DNA from: Adhaeribacter aerolatus | GTDB lineage: Bacteria > Bacteroidota > Bacteroidia > Cytophagales > Hymenobacteraceae | DNA length: 64,000 nucleotides | Assembly: GCF_007991635.1 (NCBI RefSeq) | Contig: NZ_BJYS01000004.1 | Coordinates: 1-64,000 of the forward strand | Reading direction: 5' to 3' | Shown here: piece after piece, positions 1 through 13,700 of the stretch | Position numbering within the stretch: the first letter of the stretch is position 1 | Layout: every line of letters begins with the position of its first letter | Made by a program: the position numbers and the translations under genes | The notes under the pieces: model-generated | What the model was told of the DNA's origin: nothing | Databases searched by the model: none | The model's input: the letters and a program-made list of their open reading frames with translations, nothing else

Positions 1-70
1 ACTGCTAACGTCCGCGTGTATGCTAAGCCTGAAGCGAAGCCAGGGTTTAGTATACATTGGGTTGGCACAC
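1..70 (-). repeat. attC-like site A (short type, 70 bp)
   Basis: This imperfect palindrome closes the cassette of gene 84-746. In gene direction it opens with GTGTGCCAAC (70-61), has inner arms around TGTATACTAAACCCTGG and CAGGCTTAGCATACA with a short CTTCGCTT loop, and ends in the next cassette start GTTAGCAGT (9-1). The opening is the exact complement of the cassette's own first bases at 769-760. It closely resembles site B (1471-1537) and differs from the longer sites C and D. Confidence 0.8.
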
Positions 71-83
71 GTTGTTTTTTATT

Positions 84-746
84 TTAAATAACCGTTTCCA
101 ATTTATTTGATTCAAAAATTGCAGAAGGGGAAATAACTTTTTCATTTAAAGGAATTTTATTCCCATACCTTTCTTCCATTTTCTTTTTCACAAATTTATT
201 GTTCAGGTTAAATTCCTTTAATTTTTGTAGACTGCCCAATTCAATATTTAATGCCTCCTTATACATTTTCCAGACTAACTCAGAACAATAAATTTTATCA
301 TCTGACCACCCAAAATATAAATCATAGTCTTTGTCTTTATATTTTTCTCCGGCTTTTTTAAGCCTTATAAGATTTTCCGTATTCAGAACCCTATTGCTTT
401 CCTTTAGTCTCTTTACAACAAAATGTGAATCTTTTCCTCTCTTTATCCAGTTTTCAAACTTTGTCAATTTTACTGGTTGCACTGCTTCATAAACATACAA
501 TTCCTCATTTTTCTCATAGATTATACCCATATGGCTATACTGGGAATTTGTCGCAAATTGAACTGCTTTACTTTGGCTTGATTTGGAGGCATGAAAAATT
601 ATATCTCCATTTTGGTATTTTCTCAGTAAGTATTCATTAATTCTTTTTTCAGCAGTCCTAGCCTGTAGTCTCCTATTTAAGTCTTTCCTAAAAAGAAGAA
701 ACAAGGTAAGGCCAGTAACAAAAACCAGAAAGATTATTTTTTTCAT
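84..746 (-). CDS. YiiX-like permuted papain-fold (NlpC/P60-type) amidohydrolase, cassette gene 4
   Basis: The 220-residue protein has an N-terminal hydrophobic segment (about residues 3-20, signal anchor), then the marks of the YiiX/DUF830 branch of permuted NlpC/P60 enzymes: GDIIFHAS near residue 47, SHMGIIY near 71 carrying the histidine, and YCSELVWK near 154 carrying the catalytic cysteine. Such enzymes cleave amide or peptide bonds in the envelope; the substrate cannot be told here. It lies between attC-like sites C and A with a 13-23 base gap at each end and is very AT-rich, as expected of a mobile cassette. The ATG is 14 bases after the R' complement region. The family assignment is fairly secure; the biological role is unknown. 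Confidence 0.8.
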   Translation of the reverse strand: MKKIIFLVFVTGLTLFLLFRKDLNRRLQARTAEKRINEYLLRKYQNGDIIFHASKSSQSKAVQFATNSQYSHMGIIYEKNEELYVYEAVQPVKLTKFENWIKRGKDSHFVVKRLKESNRVLNTENLIRLKKAGEKYKDKDYDLYFGWSDDKIYCSELVWKMYKEALNIELGSLQKLKEFNLNNKFVKKKMEERYGNKIPLNEKVISPSAIFESNKLETVI

Positions 747-759
747 CTTCTTTTACAAT

Positions 760-895
760 GTGTGCCAACGTTTAGGGCTTTGCGAAGATGGCGGATAGAA
801 AGCACTTCATTGTCATCTAGCACAAACTTAGTTAAATGTAGAAAAAGTTGGAGAATAACATCACCCGCCATTTTTGCAAAACCCATGTTACAAGC
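760..895 (-). repeat. attC-like site C (long type, 136 bp)
   Basis: This palindrome closes the cassette of gene 902-1441. In gene direction it opens with GCTTGTAAC (895-887), continues through an arm ending AAAAATGGCGG, has a roughly 70-base middle, returns with CCGCCATCTTCGCAAAGCCC, and ends in GTTGGCACAC (769-760), the start of the next cassette. The middle (about 795-865) is plainly similar to the middle of site D, for example AAAGCACTTCA.TGTC and TAGTTAAA. A conserved long loop is therefore part of this site type. Confidence 0.82.
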
Positions 896-901
896 TGGCA
901 T

Positions 902-1441
902 TTATTCTTCAGAAATTTCAATGAAGTCAAATCCTAATGGACTGTCATAAACACAAAGACTTATTTTGTCTCCTACGCTTGTACTTGACCAAAAGCTATT
1001 TTTGCACCTAAGTCGCTCTGTAACCCCATGCATATTTACAAAAAGAAGATTAGCACCTGGCTGGCTTCTATACCTGTACTCAATTTTTTGTTTGTCGATT
1101 ACCAAAAAGCCGTCACAAATTTCTTTTTTAGAAGCAGTCCAATTTATTAGGCTGCCTACAGTTAGCAAAAGTCCGCACATACCGAACATTAGACACATCG
1201 CTACAAACCAGTAATTCTTTAATTGCTTTTTATTAAAATGAAGATACGGCTGAATTGATTTAGAAAGCAGATAGCCACTTACTAGTCCGAGAAAAATCCA
1301 AATAAAACTATAGATATATGGGAAGTAGTAGTTTTCAATTTTGTCAAAACCGTAAATCCCCAAAAACATTCCTGAGAAAAGAAAAATCATGATGAAAAGT
1401 CCTGCGAGTTTACTTCGTCTAGACGTCTTACTTGAGGTCAT
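902..1441 (-). CDS. Predicted membrane protein, cassette gene 3
   Basis: I do not recognise this 179-residue protein. The N-terminal half shows about three hydrophobic segments (roughly residues 13-31, 41-60 and 77-99), followed by a soluble C-terminal domain of about 75 residues with the pattern GFLVIDKQKIEYRYRS and a terminal FIEISEE. The shape resembles small DUF3592-like membrane proteins, but I cannot confirm that. It starts with ATG 38 bases after the cassette opening at 1479 and stops just before site C, so gene and attC-like site form one unit. It is AT-rich relative to the chromosome. Confidence 0.65.
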   Translation of the reverse strand: MTSSKTSRRSKLAGLFIMIFLFSGMFLGIYGFDKIENYYFPYIYSFIWIFLGLVSGYLLSKSIQPYLHFNKKQLKNYWFVAMCLMFGMCGLLLTVGSLINWTASKKEICDGFLVIDKQKIEYRYRSQPGANLLFVNMHGVTERLRCKNSFWSSTSVGDKISLCVYDSPLGFDFIEISEE

Positions 1442-1470
1442 TTTAGTCGTTGTCGTATGGTTTTATGCTT

Positions 1471-1537
1471 GCTTGTAACGGCTTGTATATGCTGAGCCCG
1501 CAGCGAAGCAAGGGTTTAGTATATGTCTTGTTAGGTG
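1471..1537 (-). repeat. attC-like site B (short type, 67 bp)
   Basis: This palindrome closes the cassette of gene 1544-1999. In gene direction it opens with CACCTAAC (1537-1530), which fits the RYYYAAC rule of integron R'' boxes, has arms CATATACTAAACCC and GGGCTCAGCATATA around a CTTCGC loop, and ends in GTTACAAGC (1479-1471), the next cassette start. CACCTAAC is the exact complement of that cassette's own opening at 2004-1997. Confidence 0.85.
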
Positions 1538-1543
1538 ACGAAT

Positions 1544-1999
1544 TTATTTCTCAGTCAACTTTTCCACTTTGTACTCTTTCACTTCGAAAACATTTGCTGA
1601 TGAGTCAATCAGAACTGATAACTCCACGTCTGCTTTGCTTCCATACAGTGAGAATTGTACAGTTGCAGGGTATTTTTCAATCTTACTGATTTCATTCTGA
1701 TTGTAACCAAAGCCTGTGCTCTTTCCGATGGTTCTTCTTATTTCAGGGTCTGCTTGCAGTTGCTCAACAGTTTGAGTTACTACTTCTGGCTTGGCCATCA
1801 TCCAATCAATAGCAAGTTCAAATACGATGGCTGCAACAAGCAAGGCTATAAAGTATTTGAAGAACTTTTTATTAAATATCTGGTCTTTGCTTCCAGTAAA
1901 ACGCCTGATGATGTAATAGACAACAACAACTCCTATGATAACCTGTAAAACACTGCCTATAAATTCCATTAAAACATTTTCTATAATTCTATTTGACAC
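1544..1999 (-). CDS. Membrane protein with Coa1-like C-terminal domain, cassette gene 2
   Basis: The 151-residue protein has two hydrophobic segments (about residues 12-32 and 46-65) and a soluble C-terminal domain (about 80-145) with DPEIRRTIGKSTGFGY and a run of amphipathic strands. That domain resembles the small cytochrome-oxidase-assembly-factor (Coa1)-like domain often found in bacterial membrane proteins; the resemblance is from memory and moderate. The longest start is a GTG at 1999 that lies inside the R' box (GTTAGGTG), so this start codon would be made of recombination-site bases. An ATG at residue 11 (1969) is the alternative. It ends seven bases before site B. Confidence 0.65.
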   Translation of the reverse strand: MSNRIIENVLMEFIGSVLQVIIGVVVVYYIIRRFTGSKDQIFNKKFFKYFIALLVAAIVFELAIDWMMAKPEVVTQTVEQLQADPEIRRTIGKSTGFGYNQNEISKIEKYPATVQFSLYGSKADVELSVLIDSSANVFEVKEYKVEKLTEK

Positions 2000-2131
2000 C
2001 TAACGGTTAAGGGTTTGAATTGTGCCCGCTTAAAAGCACTTCACTGTCGCCCAGCACTAAAGTAGTTAAAAAGCACAAAAAGGAACGAGATTCACGTCGC
2101 CTGGGCATAATTTAAACCTGATGTTAGTAGC
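1997..2131 (-). repeat. attC-like site D (long type, 135 bp)
   Basis: This palindrome closes the cassette of gene 2144-2782. In gene direction it opens with GCTACTAAC (2131-2123), has an arm CAGGTTTAAATTATGCCCAGG, a roughly 70-base middle like that of site C, a returning arm GGGCACAATTCAAACCC, and ends in GTTAGGTG (2004-1997). The opening is the exact 9-base complement of the cassette start at 2834-2826. The 3' end fits GTTRRRY. Confidence 0.85.
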
Positions 2132-2143
2132 TGCCCTTCTGAT

Positions 2144-2782
2144 TTAAGTTCCATAAAAATACCTTCTTTCGAAGCTTTCATCTTTTGGCAAAGGATTCTT
2201 GGTATCAACTAATTTACAATATGTTGCCCAATAATTAACCCACTTGTCATATATCTCAGGTATTTTATTAAGTTCTACCTCAACTGAACAAGCAAAAAGT
2301 TTTATCGATTCCGCAGATATTGCAAGCCCGTAATCTTCAGCAATAAAAACCAATGAGCAATTTTCCACTAAAAAGATATTTTCATTTGGCGAATAACCGT
2401 GGACAGTAATAACCGACTTCATTTCAGCAATTATTCTCTTCTTTAATCCATTATCTGTAAACGTGAAGTACTTTTCTCTACAATCTAAACTGAAATTTTC
2501 TCTTTTTAACAGAAACTCGACTAAATCTTCTTTCTCCTCGTGTTCTTTTGTTGAAAGTAAACTAATGGATTTAGGATTAATAAAGTCTATTGAAATTGCT
2601 GTATTAGGTGCTTCAAAACTATTTACTGGCTCGAAGTATAAATCTGTCCAATCAAATTCCAATTGAAAACTTGTCGGAAGATTCAATTTTCTATTTGTCC
2701 AAAAACTAGTTTCGAGCGCACGACTTAAAACTCCTAAAGAATGATTATTTAGTAAGTTACCTTTTGACGAATTATTTATCAT
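2144..2782 (-). CDS. Hypothetical soluble protein, cassette gene 1 (nearest the recombinase)
   Basis: I do not recognise this 212-residue protein. It has no signal peptide or membrane segment and shows mixed alpha/beta character with several aromatic-rich stretches (WTDLYFEP near residue 46, KWVNYWATYCK near 180). The ATG at 2782 lies 52 bases after the cassette opening at 2834. It is the first cassette of the array and so the one most exposed to any promoter at the attI side. It is AT-rich like the other cassette genes. No function can be inferred from neighbours because cassette neighbours are not functionally linked. Confidence 0.6.
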   Translation of the reverse strand: MINNSSKGNLLNNHSLGVLSRALETSFWTNRKLNLPTSFQLEFDWTDLYFEPVNSFEAPNTAISIDFINPKSISLLSTKEHEEKEDLVEFLLKRENFSLDCREKYFTFTDNGLKKRIIAEMKSVITVHGYSPNENIFLVENCSLVFIAEDYGLAISAESIKLFACSVEVELNKIPEIYDKWVNYWATYCKLVDTKNPLPKDESFERRYFYGT

Positions 2783-2825
2783 GTGAATAGATTTTATGCT
2801 TCAGGATTTCGGTCGTCTCCGGGTT

Positions 2826-2870
2826 GCTACTAACTATTATGTAAACACCATTATTACGTTTATATCGCCT
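2826..2870 (-). other. Candidate attI-type recombination site
   Basis: The first cassette opens here with GTTAGTAGC on the minus strand (2834-2826). Immediately on the recombinase side, the + strand reads ATTATGTAAAC (2836-2846), nine bases, then ACGTTTATAT (2856-2865). This is an inverted pair of AT-rich arms with the spacing of a simple two-site tyrosine-recombinase core. There is no attC-like palindrome on the recombinase side, as expected of attI. A further hairpin, TATATCGCC/GGCGGTTATA, spans 2861-2890. The assignment rests on position and symmetry. Confidence 0.45.
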
Positions 2871-3024
2871 TTGAGAGCAGGCGGTTATATTTCTGTAATT
2901 TATTGGCTTTCTTTATCTTACCTTTTTTTACCCTTTTCATATTCGCTTAGCCAGTTACGGTTGCAGAATTTTAGGTAATTCTTCTTTCGATCGGTTTTAA
3001 TTCCTGCACAATATATTAAAAAAT

Positions 3025-4320
3025 TTAAATATTAAGACCATCCAGCGGGCTGATTATTTTATCTAAGCCATGCTGGGTGATATGGGTGTAGATTTCGGTA
3101 GTTTTGCTGGAATTATGACCCAGCAGCGCCTGGATATACCGCAAATCTGTTCCCTGCTCCAGCAAATGCGTGGCAAAAGAATGCCGTAGCGTATGCGGCG
3201 TAGCGGCTTGCCTGATACCGGCTTTTTGCAGCGCGGCCCGAAACACATTACGGATACTCTCCACGGAATAAGCCCCGCCGTCCTGGCCCTCAAATAACCA
3301 ATCTTTGGGCTTGTATTTCTGGTAGTATAGCCGCAGTTCTTCCAGCAGCCGGGGCGATAACAGCGTGGTGCGGTCTTTGTAGCCCTTACCGCCCCGAATC
3401 AGCAACAGACGTCGCTTAGATTGTACATCGGTTAACCGCAGGTTAACCACTTCGCCAATGCGTAAGCCGCCCGAATACAACAGGAGCAATAAACACCGGT
3501 GCTTGAGGTTATCCGGCGCTTTCAGGATAGCGGCCACTTCTTCCTTACTTAATACTTTAGGTAATTTCTTTTCTTGTGCCGGCCGGTTTACCTCGGCCAA
3601 TCCCATATCCCGGCGGCCCAGCAGTTTACCGTAATAGAACTTAATGGCATTGATGGACTGGTTTATATAGGTATACGATTGCCCTTTGGCCTGCAGGGCC
3701 ATGTGATACTGGTTCACCTGCTCCGGGGTAAAGGTATTGATTACGTCTAAACCCTGTGCCGTATAGGTATTCAGAAACCGCAGCAGCAGCGCATGGTAGG
3801 TGCGCATCGTACGGCGGCTGTAGTTCAAAAGCTGCATTTTCTCCAGGTAAACCAGGGGGCAAGGCAAAAAGTGCTGGTCTTCCAGGTATAACTGCTCCCA
3901 GAGCTTTTTCAATAAACTTAAATCTTTCACCTGTATTTGCTGGGACAAGGCCAGGTGCACCAGCGGCAGCAATTCATCTACTAACAGATGCAGTTTATCG
4001 GCCTGCGCCCAGGTGAGAAAGCAGCGGTAAGTACGGCTCCACTTCACCTGTTTTAGTTCTTTCAGTTGGGGATACAGGTTGCTTTCGGGCGGGTATTGCA
4101 GCCGCAGGTACGTTTGCCCTTCGTGCTGTAGGGGCACCAGTTTTAAGGGCGGCTTTCCCGCAGGCTTTGGTAAAGCCGTTAACACTGGGGCCTGGCCGCT
4201 GGTAAGCACGGTTTTACCGGCCGGCAGGCGGCTTTGGTGGTACAGGTAACGGGTATTTATCTGTGTTATTCCGGCAAAATGACTTTGAATCTGCGCTATG
4301 GCTTGCGGCGAATGGTGCAT
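3025..4320 (-). CDS. Integron-integrase-like tyrosine recombinase
   Basis: The 431-residue protein has all tyrosine-recombinase residues: R287 in SGGLRIGE, K312/K315 in GGKGYKDR, H376 and R379 in PHTLRHSF, H402 in LLGHNSS and the nucleophile Y411 in YTHIT. The core-binding domain covers about 155-235. The tail ISPLDGL matches the SPLD tail of IntI proteins and some Bacteroidota Xer-like recombinases. The insert that IntI carries between the lysine and HxxR motifs is absent: only about 60 residues separate them. Residues 1-150 form an extension with QYPPES...WSRTYRCFLTW, a strand-rich pattern shared with other Bacteroidota integrases. Its codon use resembles the chromosome rather than the AT-rich cassettes. 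It is probably the enzyme acting on the neighbouring attC-like sites; this is inferred from adjacency. Confidence 0.88.
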   Translation of the reverse strand: MHHSPQAIAQIQSHFAGITQINTRYLYHQSRLPAGKTVLTSGQAPVLTALPKPAGKPPLKLVPLQHEGQTYLRLQYPPESNLYPQLKELKQVKWSRTYRCFLTWAQADKLHLLVDELLPLVHLALSQQIQVKDLSLLKKLWEQLYLEDQHFLPCPLVYLEKMQLLNYSRRTMRTYHALLLRFLNTYTAQGLDVINTFTPEQVNQYHMALQAKGQSYTYINQSINAIKFYYGKLLGRRDMGLAEVNRPAQEKKLPKVLSKEEVAAILKAPDNLKHRCLLLLLYSGGLRIGEVVNLRLTDVQSKRRLLLIRGGKGYKDRTTLLSPRLLEELRLYYQKYKPKDWLFEGQDGGAYSVESIRNVFRAALQKAGIRQAATPHTLRHSFATHLLEQGTDLRYIQALLGHNSSKTTEIYTHITQHGLDKIISPLDGLNI

Positions 4321-4568: not shown

Positions 4569-4685
4569 GGCTAACCTTTAACCATGCAAAATCTTCCGGC
4601 TACCTGCCAGTTGGGTGAAAGTGCAGAAAAATCGGAGAGTAAAATATCATCGCTTCTTTTTTGTACATTTAGAAAAAATATCAAC

Positions 4686-4913
4686 ATGATTGACTATAAA
4701 CAAATAATAACCATTGAACCTGGAAAGCGGGGTGGAAAACCGACGATTCGAGGTATGAGAATCAGTGTCAATGATATTCTGAGCTGGTTGGCTTCAGGAA
4801 TGTCAATTCCTGACATCATTGCGGATTTTGATGAACTAACACAAGAAGATATTTTTGCAGCTCTGAGTTATGCAGCAGATAGGGAAAATAAAATCTATCA
4901 AATTGCTGTATGA
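4686..4913 (+). CDS. DUF433 family antitoxin
   Basis: The predicted protein has 75 residues when begun at the ATG at 4686, the usual length for DUF433 (PF04255). The longer open frame from 4584 would add 34 residues running across the cassette start and is unlikely to be used. Family marks are EPGKRGGKPTIRGMRI near the start and the helix-turn-helix-like VNDILSWLASGMSIPDIIADFDEL. DUF433 proteins pair with DUF5615 PIN-like toxins, as in VapBC45-type modules, binding the toxin and probably their own promoter. The stop overlaps the toxin start in an ATGA. The promoter may be the TACATTTAG-like stretch about 20 bases upstream. Confidence 0.85.
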   Translation: MIDYKQIITIEPGKRGGKPTIRGMRISVNDILSWLASGMSIPDIIADFDELTQEDIFAALSYAADRENKIYQIAV

Positions 4914-5254
4914 AATTGTTGTTTGACCAAAATATTTCACACCGAATACTTAAAATCTTACCCGACGAATATATCGGTTCAACATCTATTAAAAGCCAAA
5001 AGCTTATCGACAGTTCAGATAGAGCGATTTGGGAATTCGCAAAAAAGAACGACTACATAATTGTAACTCAAGATTCAGATTTTAATGATTTGAATTCTCT
5101 TTTCGGTTTTCCTCCTAAGATAATTTGGATTAGAACAGGAAATTTGAAAACAGACGAAATCGCTAAAATACTACTTGAACACGCGGATGAAATCGAAGAA
5201 TTTAACCAAGACCCTAATTTTGGCTGTTTTGAGATTCTTGCTTTAAAGAAATAG
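4910..5254 (+). CDS. DUF5615 PIN-like ribonuclease toxin
   Basis: The 114-residue protein begins MKLLFDQNISHRI, with the first acidic residue of the PIN fold, and continues with SSDRAIWEFAKKNDYIIVTQDSDF, in which the Asp pair forms the rest of the metal site. PKIIWIRTGN is the usual downstream strand of DUF5615 (PF18480). Members act as endoribonuclease toxins neutralised by the upstream DUF433 partner. Translation is coupled by the 4-base overlap at 4910. The stop codon is immediately followed by the attC-like opening, which begins at 5254. Low GC matches the cassettes at 1-2834 rather than the chromosome. Confidence 0.87.
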   Translation: MKLLFDQNISHRILKILPDEYIGSTSIKSQKLIDSSDRAIWEFAKKNDYIIVTQDSDFNDLNSLFGFPPKIIWIRTGNLKTDEIAKILLEHADEIEEFNQDPNFGCFEILALKK

Positions 5255-6084: not shown

Positions 6085-7038
6085 TTAAGATAAATAACCT
6101 ACCCGGTCGCCGTCTTCGGTTACCAGCACACCGTTATTACCCACAAAAATAGTATCGAAATAAGAGCTTTGTAACACAAAAGGATAACTGCGGCTGTTGG
6201 TGTCGGCCATTTTGCCAATTACCTCTACCCGGCCATTATCGTCCACATGAATCAGGGCCAGGTTTTTGGTGAGGTAAAATTTTTCACCGGGTACAGCTCT
6301 AAAGGTTACTTTTCGCAAAATATCGTTCTGGGTTAAAACCACCCGTTGGGCGCTGGTCCGGCGAACCGGGGTACGGGTTGGGGCCGAAGCTACTACGGGT
6401 TCTTCCGGCCTTACCTGCGGACGCGTAACCGGCCGGGCTACCGCGCCATTTGATTTAGCGCTGGCAATAATCTGCTCGTTGGCACTTTGCCAGCCTTTGC
6501 TGATGGAGGCCAGGCGGGCACTGCGGCCGGGGTGCGTAGCAGAACCTCTTTCGTCGGATAGCAGGCGCATAGCGGCTTGGGCATCGGCTAAACCGGCGCC
6601 CATCTTGCGTAATACAAACCCCGAAAATTCATCGGCTTCCAGTTCGTCCTGCGGGTTGCTCCCGCTTCTCGACAATGTATGCCCGTTCAGGTGGTGGCCG
6701 ATTTCATGGGCCAGAATACTCACGGCTGCCCAGTCGGTTTTAACGGCATTGTTCACGGCGTCCACAAACTGGCGGTTGTATAATATATAGCGCTGGCCAT
6801 TGTAAATAACGGCCGCCGCGTTATCTACTTCTGCTTCGCGCACTTCAAAGCGCGGTTTCAGCCCTACTACATCAATAATTTCTTTTATAATATCGCGGGG
6901 TCCCGGCGCCACATAAGCGGCCTCAGATACCTTATTAAATGCTGTTGTAGCCAGGGCGGCACCAGTTACAGCAGGAGCCTGCGTAAACGATACTAACACC
7001 ACCAACCAGGCCAGGCCTTGTTTTATAATATTTCGCAT
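6085..7038 (-). CDS. Secreted M48-type zinc metallopeptidase
   Basis: Starting at the ATG at 7038 gives 317 residues with a typical signal peptide (MRNIIKQGLAWLVVLV...). The open frame extends 17 residues further upstream, but those are charged and unlikely to be translated. The zinc site is ILAHEIGHHLNGH (HExxH), and DELEADEFSGF about 18 residues later supplies the third ligand Glu, as in M48 peptidases. A Pro/Arg-rich linker leads to a C-terminal beta-rich domain of about 90 residues ending DGDRVGYLS. The protein is probably periplasmic or surface exposed. It is a single gene, with a clear terminator at 6011-6036 and a 350-bp upstream gap holding nothing else I can identify. Confidence 0.82.
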   Translation of the reverse strand: MRNIIKQGLAWLVVLVSFTQAPAVTGAALATTAFNKVSEAAYVAPGPRDIIKEIIDVVGLKPRFEVREAEVDNAAAVIYNGQRYILYNRQFVDAVNNAVKTDWAAVSILAHEIGHHLNGHTLSRSGSNPQDELEADEFSGFVLRKMGAGLADAQAAMRLLSDERGSATHPGRSARLASISKGWQSANEQIIASAKSNGAVARPVTRPQVRPEEPVVASAPTRTPVRRTSAQRVVLTQNDILRKVTFRAVPGEKFYLTKNLALIHVDDNGRVEVIGKMADTNSRSYPFVLQSSYFDTIFVGNNGVLVTEDGDRVGYLS

Positions 7039-7389
7039 AACTTTCTCTTTTATCTTTTTCCCTGTTTTATTCTCTCTTATTAAAAGCAAACCAAGCAGCT
7101 AAATTCAGAAACTTATAGGCTTTAATCTGCTTTAACTATTATAGCAAACTTATTGCCAAATTTATAAGAAATGGTATTTTACCAGAATCCAACGTTTCTG
7201 TTCCTGTAAACGCTGCTCCCCTGCTAAATGGTATATTCCCAGAGCTTCCGCAACACATTTTAAAGGCTGTTCGGGCTTAATAGATTAAAAAAGTGTTGTT
7301 ACAGTATAATAATATGGCGACTTACTTCCAAACCGTTAACGCAGGCATTCGAAAAAGAGCTAGGCTTTACCTGTAATGAAGCGGGTACA

Positions 7390-7896
7390 TTACTCCTTTA
7401 CAGTTTCGATATTCAAGTATTCTTCATCGGGGTTAAAGCTATACCGCATTACACTGGTCAGGTCCTGTTTTGTTTTCTGGATGCTTTTTATTCTTTTCAC
7501 ATCGGCTAGAAACAAATCCGGATTTACCCCCCTTTTATCTACCAGCACTTTTAACCGGAGATCCGAAGCAGGAACCTTATAATAATCCAGTACTTCATCT
7601 AGTCTTAGAAGCGGCGTATTGGTTTTTAGCCGGGCCAGAATAATCCCGTCTTTGCCTTTTTCGCCAAAAGGTACCAATTCCAGAGAGTCTTCATAGGTTT
7701 TTATAATTTCCAGATTGCTCCGGTCGATAATTAAAGAATGGTAATCTGTTTCTAAAGCACCTATCATTATTAAGGGCTGCTTTACATTAACAATGCGGGT
7801 TTGGGAGTAAGCCTGGCGTGTACCCGGTAATGATTGAGCGCCGCAAAAGCTGCTGGAAAAAGATAAAACCAGGCAGATAAGTAAAGCCTTTGCCAT
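7390..7896 (-). CDS. Small secreted protein with TonB-plug-like repeats
   Basis: The 168-residue protein has a signal peptide ending near GAQS. The segment PLIMIGALETDYHSLIIDRS followed by NLEIIKTYEDS and GEKGKDGIILARLK has the layout of a TonB-receptor plug (PLYIVDG...I..IEVLKDA...YG.RGANGVILITTK). LRLKVLVDKRGVNPDLFLADVKRIKSIQ looks like a second, shorter copy of the first half. There is no barrel. Such plug-only proteins in Bacteroidota may bind receptor or peptidoglycan partners, but no function is established here. The neighbour at 7990-8382 is on the same strand 93 bp away and may be co-transcribed. Confidence 0.6.
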   Translation of the reverse strand: MAKALLICLVLSFSSSFCGAQSLPGTRQAYSQTRIVNVKQPLIMIGALETDYHSLIIDRSNLEIIKTYEDSLELVPFGEKGKDGIILARLKTNTPLLRLDEVLDYYKVPASDLRLKVLVDKRGVNPDLFLADVKRIKSIQKTKQDLTSVMRYSFNPDEEYLNIETVKE

Positions 7897-7989
7897 ACGC
7901 CAATAATTTTTTTTAAGCTGCTAATTACGCCGGTTTAAGCCTGCCTTGTTTTGTGTAAAACCAACCGGCAGCAATAATTTGGGGTTAAG

Positions 7990-8382
7990 CTAAGTACCCT
8001 GCTCAATACCGGCGATGCAGGTAATCTCTACTAAATTGTTATTTCCATAGCCTGCTACGTTACAAGGCGTTGCGCCTAGTTCTACGTCCGATTTCAGATA
8101 GCCTACAATGATTCGCTGGCCCACTCTTACCGGAAAATCTTTAATTTTAAAAACCAGCTCATTGGCAGGCCCGGTTGTGTAGGAGGCATTCAGGGGCACT
8201 ACTACCTGGCTATTCTCCAGTTGTAACTGTAAGCCGCAACTCGGCACATACTGTACAACCGCCAATGTGTCGCAATTTTCCTGCGGCATTACGGCGTCTT
8301 CTTTTTGGGTACAGGCTGCCAAGGAAAGCACTCCAGCCAGGAAAAACAGAAAGAAACGTTTGCAGTAAGTATTTTTCATCAC
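7990..8382 (-). CDS. Lipoprotein of unknown function
   Basis: The 130-residue protein has an N-terminal signal with the lipobox LSLAAC at about residues 19-24, followed by a charged mature start (TQKEDAVMPQE). Five further cysteines (in ENCDTL, PSCGL, TPCNV and ITCIAG) could form disulfides. The mature part is probably a small beta-sandwich, with strands such as QLQLENSQVVVPLN and VRVGQRIIVGYLK. It is likely anchored in the outer membrane or inner leaflet. The start may be either of the two adjacent ATGs at 8382 and 8379. Confidence 0.7.
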   Translation of the reverse strand: MMKNTYCKRFFLFFLAGVLSLAACTQKEDAVMPQENCDTLAVVQYVPSCGLQLQLENSQVVVPLNASYTTGPANELVFKIKDFPVRVGQRIIVGYLKSDVELGATPCNVAGYGNNNLVEITCIAGIEQGT

Positions 8383-8525
8383 TTATATATTTTGAAACCA
8401 ATGGTTATAGCCTTCTTTCTACTTACAAGAGTATTATAACCGGACTTTGGTTGCTTGCCTTTAAATTTTTTGTTAAAAAATGTAAAGCGCAAAAACTACA
8501 CCATAATCAGCCAGGTTAGCTGTTA

Positions 8526-8688
8526 AGAGCTTGTTTAAATTTTGTTTTTGAGAGCGAAAAGGATTGCTATTGGGTTCTGACGAGACTTATTTTGAGGGGC
8601 ATAGCAGCGCTACGGCCCGAAAAATAGGCAGATTCAGGTTCCAATAGCAAGCCTTTGCAGCCCAAAGGATAAATTTTAAACATGTTCT
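8526..8688. repeat. Long fold-back (MITE-like) element
   Basis: The left end (8526-8573) and right end (8641-8688) are imperfect inverted repeats of about 48 bases: AGAGCTTGTTTAAATTTT on one side against AGAACATGTTTAAAATTT on the other, both running inward to TTGCTATTGG. The inside continues to pair (GGTTCTGACGAGACTTATTTT against the complement of AAAAATAGGCAGATTCAGGTTCC) up to a centre near TAGCAGCGCTA. The whole element could form a single hairpin of about 80 bp. It encodes no protein, and I saw no second copy in the window. Confidence 0.7.
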
Positions 8689-9578: not shown

Positions 9579-10233
9579 AATTTACGCTTTTACAAATTTT
9601 ATCCGGACCTGGTACCAACCGGAAAATAGAGCTACTGGCTTCAGATGATGGTTATGACTTTCCTGGAGATATCTTTTACACCGGACAAAGGAATACCTGC
9701 TTCTCAAATATTAATATTAATTAGTCTCAGGCCAAGACCATATACCCGTAGTTCCGTTGGTTTATCCTGGATTGGATAAATAAAACCTTGGTGCTAAATT
9801 TCATAACCCGGCGGATTTTGCAAGATTCCGCCGGGTTTACCAATTCTAAGGTGTTATTCCGAAACCAAGCGGCTATTCATTTTAGATTAACAACTGGGCG
9901 AAGCTGTTAATGAAGCATAATCAAAAACATCTGGCTGATGATTTGCTGTTTGTCCGGCATTAATATGGCGGCTTATAGCTTTACCAGACAATTATATTGG
10001 CAGTACAGTACGCGCTTTTCCCCTTAAATACGCAGTAGTTAAACCTTATCAAAATATGTTGCTGCCTTTCACGCTTCTCATTAAAAAATATTTTTACCTA
10101 TCTGAAACGCCACCCTCCTTTATTACTATACTTCAAATTACACAACATACTTGCTGTAGCTGAATTTTATAATTTTATTTATAAATAAGCTTTAAATATT
10201 GCTTAGGAAATATATTTATCTGTACTTATTTTT
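9579..10233. other. Non-coding stretch
   Basis: No convincing gene is present in these 650 bases. The only structured element I see is the strong hairpin at 9805-9839. The part before it (about 9600-9800) shows no reading frame with coding character. It may be the leader of an untranslated transcript or the long 3' end of 9390-9578. Confidence 0.4.
9805..9839 (+). terminator. Strong hairpin, probable terminator
   Basis: AACCCGGCGGA (9805-9815) and TCCGCCGGGTT (9827-9837) are perfect 11-base arms around an 11-base loop. The T-tract after it is weak. It sits 227 bp past the nearest plus-strand stop codon, further than usual. Confidence 0.55.
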
Positions 10234-10250
10234 GTTAAAATAATTTTAAC
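10234..10250. promoter_or_regulatory. Perfect palindrome upstream of 10288
   Basis: GTTAAAAT and ATTTTAAC flank a single central base, 37 bp before the ATG of the next gene. This is the position and symmetry of a dimeric repressor operator. No regulator gene is adjacent, so the partner is unknown. Confidence 0.35.
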
Positions 10251-10287
10251 AGAAAATTACATTATAGATTATTTACCATTTAGGCTT

Positions 10288-10680
10288 ATGAAAAAAATCA
10301 TTACCCTCCTCTTAATTTGTTTACCCATTACCTTATTTGCCCAGGAGCTGATTGGCAAAAAAAAGAAATACATCAGCTCTATCAAACAATCTTCTTCCCT
10401 GATTGTTGACTTGCCGGAAATGAGTATTTGGAGTAACCAGGCCGAAGCCGGATCATTGTTTCTGATTTGCTACTTCCGGGACGAAAAATGCGAAAAAACC
10501 GTAAGCATTTATCCGAACGAAAAATTAAAACAGTGGGAAAAAATATTAAACACCAACTGTGCTAAGGTTAAGGGCGAAGAATTGGTGTGGTTAGACCAAC
10601 GGCGGCAACTCCTGTTTAAGGTAGTACCCTGCGAAAACCAGACCTTTGCCTTAGAAAGCACCAAGGCAAACGTTCAGTAG
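10288..10680 (+). CDS. Secreted protein of unknown function
   Basis: The 130-residue protein has a clean signal peptide (MKKIITLLLICLPITLFAQE). The mature part of about 110 residues has four cysteines (ICYFRDEKCEK, NTNCAK, VPCEN), suggesting two disulfides in the periplasm, and ends without a sorting domain. A stretch WLDQRRQLLFKVVPC looks like paired beta strands. I do not recognise a family. It lies 111 bp upstream of the large Omp85 gene on the same strand and could share its transcript, but no functional link is visible. Confidence 0.6.
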   Translation: MKKIITLLLICLPITLFAQELIGKKKKYISSIKQSSSLIVDLPEMSIWSNQAEAGSLFLICYFRDEKCEKTVSIYPNEKLKQWEKILNTNCAKVKGEELVWLDQRRQLLFKVVPCENQTFALESTKANVQ

Positions 10681-10791
10681 CGTTTAAACGTACGTGTAGT
10701 CGGGTAATATTACCTCCTGTTAAAAGAAACACGAGACCGGTTTCTTTGGAATTCCATTACACGTAACCTAAATTCAGAAACGCTAAAAAAA

Positions 10792-13700
10792 ATGTACTTG
10801 CACCTGCACAAATATGTACAATTATTTGTATTTGTATTTATTTCTATACCCGCTTTAAGCCAAACGCAAAATTTACCAGCTGCCCCCGGTAGCGAACTTA
10901 CTTATTCGGTTTTGGTAACCGGCAACACCGGCGAAGCCAATGCTAAGAAAACAATCACGCCTATTCTTAGCCAGCTTCTGCCGGCCGCCGGCAAAAACAG
11001 CAGCGCCATCTTTATTGGCAATCCGCTTTATCCCCAGGTTTTGCCCAAAGAAAATACCGCAAACCGGGCCGCCGATGAAAAAGAGCTAAAAGAACAATTG
11101 GCCCCCTTAACCAAATACGAAGGAACGGCCATGATTATACCGGGTGCCCAGGGTCGCAAGACCGAAAGAGATGATGAAGCTTACCGCCGTCAGGAAAAAT
11201 TTATTGCCACTTTCCTCGAAAACGACAAAATATTTGTACCCGAAGGTGGTTGCCCCGGCCCTTTCGAAGTTCATGTAAATCCGGATATATTACTTATTAT
11301 ATTAGATACGAAGCGGCTGTTGCCCGGCCACGAAATAACCGATGAGTTTAGCACTTGTCCGGCTACCCGGCCTTCGCAGGTAATTGCCTTACTCGATGAT
11401 ATCTTGCGCAGCTACGACGAAAAACAAGTAGTAGTGGCTGCTAATATTCCGGCAGATATAAAGGCCATGGAATATAAATACCTGCGCCGGAACTTTGCTC
11501 AGTTCTTTAAACAGCACCCGGGTTTAATTTACATCGAAAATAATGGCAGCGCCCTGCGGCACAGCTTTTCCGATAGCATTCATTACGTTTCGGTTGGTAA
11601 TCAGGCCGGGCAGGTGGAACCGCCTAAAGGCGAAAAGGTTTTATTCTCGGCTAATACTGCTGGTTTGGCTAAGATAAACTTTTATAAAAACGGTGAAGCC
11701 TGGCTCGAATTGGTAACGGGTGGTACCGAAAATAACTCGTCCGGCCAAGTAGCTTACCGCACCTTATTGATGCGCAAACCTACCCAGGCCATGATTAATG
11801 CCTCTTTAAAAGGCCTGGATATTGATTTCTCGGATAGCACCGCCCTTGTAAGCGCCAGCACCGATTACGAAGCCGGCCCATTCCGGGAGTGGCTGATGGG
11901 CAAAAACTACCGCGACGAATGGGGCACCCCGGTAAAACTGCCTTATTTTGATATAGGTAAAATGAAAGGTGGTCTGAAGGTGGTACAGCAGGGCGGCGGT
12001 TTTCAGACGCGCTCCTTGCGTTTGGCCGACTCTACCGGGCGCGAATACGTGCTGCGCTCCGTAGAAAAATACCCGGCCGCGGCCTTGCCCCGGCCGTTGC
12101 GCAAAACCATTGCGGCCGATGTGGTAAAAGACCAGATCTCGGCCTCGCACCCTTACGGGCCGCTAACCTTGTCCAGCTTAGCCGATGCGGCCAAAATATA
12201 CCACACCAATCCGCAGTATTTTTACATACCCGACGACCCGCGCTTAGGTAAATACCGTGAAGGCTTTGCCAAAACGGTTGGTTTATTTGAAGAAAGGCCC
12301 GACGAAGACCAATCGGATGCGCCGCACTTTGGCAACTCCAAAAATGTGAAAGGCACGGATAAAGTACTTGAAAAGTTACAGGAAGACAACGACAACGAAG
12401 TAGATCAGAAATCGGTTATACGGGCCCGTTTATTCGATTTTTTAATAGGCGATTGGGACCGGCACGACGACCAGTGGCGCTGGGCCAGTTTTGAAAAGCA
12501 AAAAGAGAAAGGCGATATTTTCCGGCCCATTCCGCGCGACCGCGACATGGCGTTTTTTATAAACCAAGGCGTAATACCCAATATTGCCAGCCGCAAATGG
12601 TTAATGCCTAAAATCCAGGGTTTCGACGATGATATCCGCGACATAGCCAGTTTTAACTTTAATGCCCGCTACTTCGATCGCACCTTTCTGACCGAACCCA
12701 TCCTGGCTGATTGGCTGGAGGTAGCCAACGATCTGAAAAGTACTATCAGTGATGCGGATATTGAACAGGCCATTAAGCAACTGCCCGAACCGGTGTTTCG
12801 CTTGTCAGGGTCCCGTATTATTTCGGACCTGAAAGCCCGGCGCGACGCGTTACCCCGCGATGCCGCCGAATATTACCAATTTTTGGCCAAAGCGGTGGAT
12901 GTAGTAGGCAGCGACAAAAACGAATTATTTTTGATAGAGCGGCAGGACGATGAAAATACCCTCGTAACGGTGCGAAAAATAAACAAAGACGGCGAGCTGG
13001 AGCAGGAGCTTTATAAACGGCAATTTAAAACGTATGAAACCGACGAAATACGGCTCTACGGCCTGGCCGGCGAAGACGAGTTCCGGGTTACCGGAGAAGT
13101 AAATAAGGGCATAAAAGTACGGATTATCGGTGGTGATGATAAAGACAAAATAACCGACAACTCCCAAGTAGGCGGCCTTTGGAAGAAAACCTACGTGTAT
13201 GACACCCGCACCGAAAACGAGCTAAAACTGGGACCTGAATCAAAAAACCTGACTTCGAAAAAATCAGAGGTAAACAAATACGACCGCAAAGCTTTCGTGT
13301 ACGACTACCTGGGTCCGCTGGGTGCTATTGAGTTTAACCGCGACAACGGCATACAATTAGGCGCGGGTGTTTTAATAAAAAAGCAGGGCTTTAAAAAAGA
13401 ACCGTTTGCCGCCTCTCATCGTTTTATTGGGAAATATGCTTTGCGCACGAATTCTTATAAATTTAATTATGCAGGCTTTTTTACCGATGTCATTAAAAAA
13501 TTCGATTTACAACTCAACCTGGATATCCGGGCTCCTAATTTTAACACTACCTTCTTTGGCTTAGGCAACGAAACGCAGTACGACGAGGATAAAGAAGAAA
13601 TTAAATTTTATCGTTATACCTCGCGGCAATATTATTTTAATGCCCTGATTGGCCGCAAAATCGGTAAGAGCCAAATGCTACTCTTTGGCCCCTCGTACCA

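Follow-up and report, generated by a model that had tools for sequence, protein, structure and literature searches.

The first 64,000 bases of contig 4 in the 95-contig, 6.68-Mb genome of Adhaeribacter aerolatus (G000:C4:1-64000, the whole stretch analysed here and called the window) open with a tyrosine recombinase gene and a one-way array of gene cassettes, which together very probably form an integron-like platform whose cassettes are moved by a tyrosine recombinase from a family other than that of IntI. Judged by its DNA, the system appears to work like an integron while standing outside the family that IntI defines. This reading draws on the anatomy of the array, the complementarity of the two ends of each cassette (its own ends), a strand bias in site folding, an attI core, the co-orientation of cassettes, breakpoints in plasmids, and the association of recombinase with arrays. 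On the minus strand the recombinase (4320-3025) comes first, followed by cassettes c1 to c4. The features are these:

3025 to 4320, minus: tyrosine recombinase gene, 431 aa; catalytic part about 155-431 (PF00589, E 6e-40).
3008 to 3015, minus: candidate -7 promoter box TATATTGT, just past the recombinase stop and reading into the array (putative promoter).
2835 to 2872, minus: attI core AAAGGCGATATAAACGTAATAATGGTGTTTACATAATA, ending at the crossover G^TT; same element in the same place in A. rhizoryzae (L004).
2004 to 2833, minus: cassette 1, ORF 2144-2782, 212 aa, no Pfam family; own ends 9 nt plus A10/G10 (explained below).
2002 to 2131, minus: attC-like site of cassette 1, long type; palindrome with internal stem, matching sites in relatives.
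1479 to 2003, minus: cassette 2, ORF 1544-1999, small protein, no Pfam family; own ends 8 nt plus A10/G10.
1477 to 1537, minus: attC-like site of cassette 2, short type; 51.7 bits with covariance model R1, of which it is itself a training member.
769 to 1478, minus: cassette 3, ORF 902-1441, 179 aa, no Pfam family; own ends 9 nt plus A10/G10.
767 to 895, minus: attC-like site of cassette 3, long type; stretches as long as a site in two other genomes (G180 and G044) match it at 84-87%.
9 to 768, minus: cassette 4, ORF 84-746, YiiX-type permuted papain-like enzyme, Peptidase_C92 (NF007458, 279 bits); own ends 10 nt plus A10/G10.
7 to 70, minus: attC-like site of cassette 4, short type; R1 48.0 bits, itself a training member.
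1 to 8, minus: start of cassette 5, truncated at the contig end; GTTAGCAGT at 9-1, the window beginning at contig base 1.

Each cassette opens with bases that are the exact complement of the first bases of its closing palindrome: GTTAGTAGC (2834) with GCTACTAAC (2131) in c1, GTTAGGTG (2004) with CACCTAAC (1537) in c2, GTTACAAGC (1479) with GCTTGTAAC (895) in c3, and GTTGGCACAC (769) with GTGTGCCAAC (70) in c4. All eight boxes lie where the first-pass annotation had placed them and the four pairs hold, as does its observation that the pairs differ between cassettes; each repeat fits its own partner only. The complementarity is in fact longer than it had claimed, reaching about 13-15 nt in all four pairs (c1, GTTAGTAGCAACCC and GTTAGTAGCTGCCC; c2, GTTAGGTGTCAAAT and GTTAGGTGACGAAT; c3, GTTACAAGCAAGCAT and GTTACAAGCTGGCAT; c4, GTTGGCACACATTGT and GTTGGCACACGTTGT). 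Position 10 carries A at the start and G at the reverse-complemented end in every pair (A10/G10), which gives a G.T pair on the bottom strand. Beyond the invariant GTT/AAC, the exact matches cover 6+5+6+7 = 24 free bases (about 4^-24 before allowing for choice), and a chain of four own-end units appeared in 0 of 300 local shuffles, the maximum being three, reached four times. From AAC to GTT the long sites of c1 and c3 measure about 123-126 nt and the short sites of c2 and c4 measure 56 and 57 nt. Since a fifth start, GTTAGCAGT, lies at the contig edge, the array runs off the contig. An Rfam scan of the array region matched no family.

Chains of 8-mer own ends alone were dropped as too weak on single windows, where chance chains of 2-4 arise: chains of 2-4 units were found elsewhere in the window as well, and the chain finder replaced the true c1 start by a chance match. 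A sharper directional rule was therefore needed, with a run of at least 8, a match of at least 11/14, and A10/G10; this strict rule gave one match in 575 kb of shuffled sequence.

The signature is general. Across 97 units from eight arrays the start sequence is GTTRGCNGNAATT; position 10 is A in 98% of starts and G in 80% of reverse-complemented ends. The R'' box matches the start of its own cassette and not that of its neighbour, as circular insertion predicts; compared with the R' to its right it matches 2.17 of 5 bases, against 2.11 of 5 for random pairs. Canonical class 1 cassettes also have complementary own ends, over 7-12 nt, and the A10/G10 mark is absent from them in a control of only four cassettes. 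We folded 113 sites, each bounded by two units (78 short, 35 long). The bottom strand folds better at 105 sites versus 8 with RNA parameters, and at 108 versus 4 of 112 with DNA parameters, and bottom folds contain 353 G.T pairs where top folds contain 133; folding is thus strand-biased as known for attC. Compensatory changes occur in 9 of the 13 stem pairs of the short-site alignment. The training set of R1 includes the c2 and c4 sites and sites from the examined arrays. Searching the window and array stretches with this model returned 163 sites, almost every one on the strand expected; ten control stretches of upstream DNA, taken from other taxa, gave none. The sites are attC-like in each respect considered: imperfect palindromes with a bottom-strand fold and R''/R' boxes.

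Comparison with relatives shows the recombinase and attI persisting while cassettes change. The first-pass annotation had proposed searching Hymenobacteraceae for the same recombinase with variable cassettes, and had said that the same four genes in one order in unrelated strains lacking the recombinase would speak against a mobile array. Relatives of the recombinase (E of 1e-60 or better) are present in 69 of 204 Hymenobacteraceae genomes; the four-cassette arrangement is present in none, and the window DNA matches these genomes at its sites and not in its gene bodies, bar a few weak coding matches of 66-70%. With A. rhizoryzae the window has the recombinase (87%) and attI in common, but not a single cassette. 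The conserved stretch before the first cassette ends in (A)TA^GTT, reading AAAGGCGATATAAACGTAATAATGGTGTTTACATAATA in the window and AAAGGCGATATAAACGCCAGTGGTGCGGTTACATAATA in A. rhizoryzae, and beyond this core the two carry wholly different cassettes. Tandem, co-oriented cassettes begin at an attI beside the recombinase gene, as in integrons. In most related loci a box of the TAnATTAG type (TATATTAG, TACATTAG or TACATTTG) lies at +11 past the recombinase stop. We take boxes of the TATATTAG type to resemble the Bacteroidota -7 element, and the box at +11 is likely a promoter into the array. The same annotation had called for a covariance scan, which with a model of the short sites gave 17 matches in the 6.68-Mb genome, two of them in the array, with about half of the 15 further short sites bounding own-end, cassette-like units (several of them one or two cassettes) and a few looking degenerate. 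The units at these outlying sites would be scattered cassettes that lack a recombinase.

The genes carried are compact and varied. Among the cassette ORFs, 132 of 136 face with the array; the median cassette body is 569 nt and the median ORF 168 aa. Matches to 54 Pfam families were found for 126 proteins, nearly every family once, including MazF/PemK, HTH antitoxin-like proteins, immunity proteins and Cass2. PADLOC gave few matches, so the cassettes are not mainly known defence genes.

Arrays and recombinase go together well beyond this genus. Under the strict rule, the first sample (80 loci of the genome collection) held 92 units in 280 kb downstream of the recombinase; the 666 kb upstream held 2, and the downstream DNA when shuffled held 0. 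Besides Bacteroidota these loci include one from Neomarinimicrobiota (L024), which was positive. The second sample, 20 loci drawn evenly from Bacteroidota and mostly from complete genomes, yielded 55 units from 223 kb of downstream DNA and none from either 240 kb of upstream DNA or the antisense strand. Thirteen of these loci were positive, most with the first unit 48-292 bp past the recombinase match. The recombinase itself occurs in 87 of 395 evenly drawn Bacteroidota genomes (54 of 171 genera). Arrays in complete genomes hold 10-22 or more cassettes and begin about 135-155 bp downstream of the recombinase; own-end chains there number 11 (L115), 15 (L116), 10 (L117), 14 (L119), 22 (L130) and 13 (L131), against 2-4 in shuffles. 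With its near-uniform sites of 61-63 nt, L116 is a textbook superintegron-like array, and by our reading it holds a HigB/HigA-like pair. One cassette with its site stands in two identical copies within it (L116:17441 and 13901). In 22 cases a contig of at least 40 kb ends less than or equal to 3.5 kb downstream, and in one case the end lies that close upstream, as would be expected of repetitive arrays. Recombinase and array were also seen on plasmids (L126, Pontibacter kalidii pls1; L129, Rufibacter tibetensis), and mobile versions therefore exist.

An ordinary chromosomal integron whose IntI has diverged and lost its specific insert is an unlikely account, although some evidence speaks for it: the C-terminal SPLD motif is common to both, the window protein scores 194.8 bits against the TIGR02249 integron integrase model, the site anatomy is integron-like, and the tree places family and IntI together on the far side of XerA, XerC and XerD (100/97). 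That score, however, lies below the curated cut-off of 265. Between two motifs, each of the 96 family members has 36-37 residues and five IntIs have 78, so that an IntI-specific insert of about 42 residues is absent and the alignment to 2a3v breaks at 199-248. The clades are distinct (family 93/92, IntI 100/100), with the branching between them left unsettled by the tree, and the own ends are longer and bear the A10/G10 mark missing from the four canonical cassettes. Proteins pass the IntI cut-off in only 2 of the 204 family genomes, and both are separate true IntIs. These two, in Adhaeribacter (L134:1435-2424; L133), retain the insert, have K for the first catalytic Arg and in one case contain a stop codon; they are probably dead relics of canonical integrons. 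Active-site motifs of tyrosine recombinases are invariant among 25 relatives. By sequence the best solved structures are XerA-type (4a8e, 5hxy), and an AlphaFold model (pLDDT 77.9, pTM 0.50) has the tyrosine-recombinase fold, nearest XerA and IntI. Hymenobacteraceae recombinases carry about 150 extra N-terminal residues (window 3862-4320), and many relatives match only from residue ~150. We read the family as separate from IntI, the system being integron-like and not an IntI integron. The label integron-type given in the first-pass annotation therefore describes the working mode, where it stands, and not family membership, where it does not, the recombinase not being IntI.

Two further explanations remove the recombinase from the picture. 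Host XerC/D-like proteins are present and the genome holds cassettes without a recombinase, so that another enzyme (XerC/D, or a true IntI elsewhere) could move the cassettes beside a bystander. We regard this as highly improbable: units lie downstream of the recombinase and co-oriented with it, enriched about 100-fold over upstream DNA, attI lies shortly past its stop codon, and the rare true IntIs are the two altered proteins just described. Still less credible is a reading of the cassettes as individual small transposons that end in inverted repeats, or of the palindromes as terminators or dispersed repeats between genes. Own ends are formally inverted repeats and scattered copies exist, but the repeats vary by cassette and fit only their own partner (neighbours matching as random pairs do), breakpoints fall at G^TT, the hairpin stands at one end only, and the tandem order runs one way.

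Plasmid-borne resistance genes give the evidence for movement. A tet(X2) cassette, 99.6% identical between Empedobacter and Sphingobacterium plasmids, breaks at GTT on both sides amid different neighbours, and its own ends match at 10 of 10 positions. Riemerella plasmids show the same breakpoints for the catB cassette, homology stopping at the predicted G^TT, and catB, ere(D) and OXA-347 are all bounded by own ends. Precise movement at G^TT is seen through these plasmid comparisons only, namely the tet(X2) and catB breakpoints; these two genes, and with them OXA-347 and ere(D), have the look of cassettes belonging to the system. A search of plasmid DNA with the Adhaeribacter IntI gave no match. 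An xerD gene beside tet(X3), tet(X5) and tet(X14) has been noted without explanation (PMC7473080, PMC7494873), one report asking whether it mobilises tet(X) (PMC7473080). We found the Acinetobacter 'xerD' beside tet(X3) to be a 5'-truncated member of the recombinase family (55% identity over 206-431), nested in Bacteroidota (100/94), and followed by an attI-like stretch and then a tet(X) cassette start. In each of three comparisons with tet(X) from Empedobacter and Sphingobacterium, the homology of tet(X3) starts at the G of GTT. On an E. coli tet(X4) plasmid, estT follows an attI-like stretch and starts at the G predicted; the end of tet(X4) retains GGCACATAA, followed by sequence resembling group II intron ends. 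Transformation brings aph(3')-IVb into R. anatipestifer with flanks fixed at 27 bp and 140 bp, no homology and an attC-like 3' hairpin (PMC13148043), and such homology-independent insertion fits a cassette mechanism.

Several points weigh against the cassette platform proposed here. The case is one of sequence comparison, and neither a circular cassette nor strain-level shuffling was directly seen. The strict rule finds no unit at seven of the 20 evenly drawn loci, of which one has just 251 bp of downstream sequence, and with cassettes lying far from any recombinase, part of the movement could proceed by other means. Moreover, tet(X3) breaks the own-end rule (start GTTATGTGCC, end GGCTACTAAC); it is probably a hybrid.

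Group II intron ends (TCGAGTAGACGG...) fall at a fixed base of R'' boxes (..TAA|TC) at L004:11737 and 13553, L139:14465, L150:565 and 5174, and in L207 after dfrA14; these locations include sites of Bacteroidota as well as a tet(X4) plasmid from E. coli. Ends like those at tet(X4) are present in two R'' boxes of A. rhizoryzae and one Chryseobacterium plasmid. RF02001 introns were found in L004, L139 and the class 1 plasmid L207, the L150 intron being recognised by its shared end sequence only, and those in Bacteroidota sites sit at the same R'' base as the intron in a canonical attC of L207. Pairs of an IS91-like transposase and a tyrosine recombinase follow cassette genes (aadS, catB, a VOC protein) at L151:3271-5249, 6615-8593 and 10062-11917 and at L147:7711-9653, and are possibly an element that targets cassette sites. 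Upstream of the window recombinase, at 4584-5254, two short overlapping ORFs have a DUF433/DUF5615 toxin-antitoxin-type look; this DNA is absent there in A. rhizoryzae.

A working scheme for the platform would run as follows. A circular cassette, or a single bottom strand taken up or exposed, would fold through its own ends and inner stem into an attC-like hairpin, which the recombinase would join at G^TT to attI, about 135-190 bp downstream of its own gene. New cassettes would so enter next to the promoter at the end of the recombinase gene, and older ones would be excised or shuffled by attC x attC exchange. The chemistry, the single-stranded substrate, the promoter and the directionality in this scheme are what we infer.

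We lean towards regarding these systems as a second class of integron on a non-IntI lineage, which would have been invented independently or be an older branch. The class would be widespread in Bacteroidota and in phyla next to it, and would be the vehicle in which tet(X) and other resistance genes of Bacteroidota naturally travel. It would have been overlooked because detection relies on an IntI domain and attC models; our literature searches, which did not cover bioRxiv preprints, found no paper naming this cassette system. The first-pass annotation was right about the array itself, and its proposal of mobile cassettes with folded sites and insertion at G^TT finds strong support here and across Bacteroidota; what it did not notice was how far the system extends, the A10/G10 signature, attI and the connection with resistance genes. 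The system offers a mechanism for 'xerD' beside tet(X3), tet(X5) and tet(X14) and a candidate mechanism for homology-free insertion in Riemerella, and it would explain how resistance genes such as tet(X) can move as single-gene cassettes. Furthermore, A10/G10 own ends provide a simple signature for finding cassettes, the family tests how far folded-site recombination needs the IntI insert, and the arrays open a large store of mostly unknown small genes.

Set beside known systems, the platform shares with IntI integrons (classes 1 to 3 and Vibrio superintegrons) a recombinase, attI, a likely promoter and one-way tandem cassettes; R''/L''/L'/R' sites that fold best on the bottom strand, G^TT insertion and own-end complementarity; and long homogeneous arrays with toxin-antitoxin, immunity and Cass2 cassettes and group IIC-type introns in R''. 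It differs in a recombinase of its own clade without the IntI-specific insert, in own ends of 13-15 nt with near-invariant A/G (G.T on the bottom strand) at position 10, in a recombinase gene co-oriented with the array where that of class 1 is divergent, and in a host phylum thought almost integron-free (PMC9024848). The IntegronFinder 2.0 survey reports for Bacteroidetes earlier only cassette-less integrases and later one complete integron, in Salinibacter ruber (PMC9024848). XerA, XerC and XerD resemble the recombinase in that XerA-type structures match it best and relatives are labelled 'xerD' in the literature; unlike them, it is tied to cassette arrays instead of a dif-type site and forms a separate clade, and its 210.7 bits against NF040815 stay below the cut-off of 220. 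The Acinetobacter 'xerD-tet(X3)-res-ISCR2' module contains a member of the same family but is a frozen remnant, with a truncated recombinase and the 3' half of attC lost. Uptake of aph(3')-IVb, lnu(H) and blaRATA by R. anatipestifer likewise shows fixed short flanks and an attC-like 3' hairpin (PMC13148043), whereas that report names no recombinase, no array and no link to the Bacteroidota cassette system described here.

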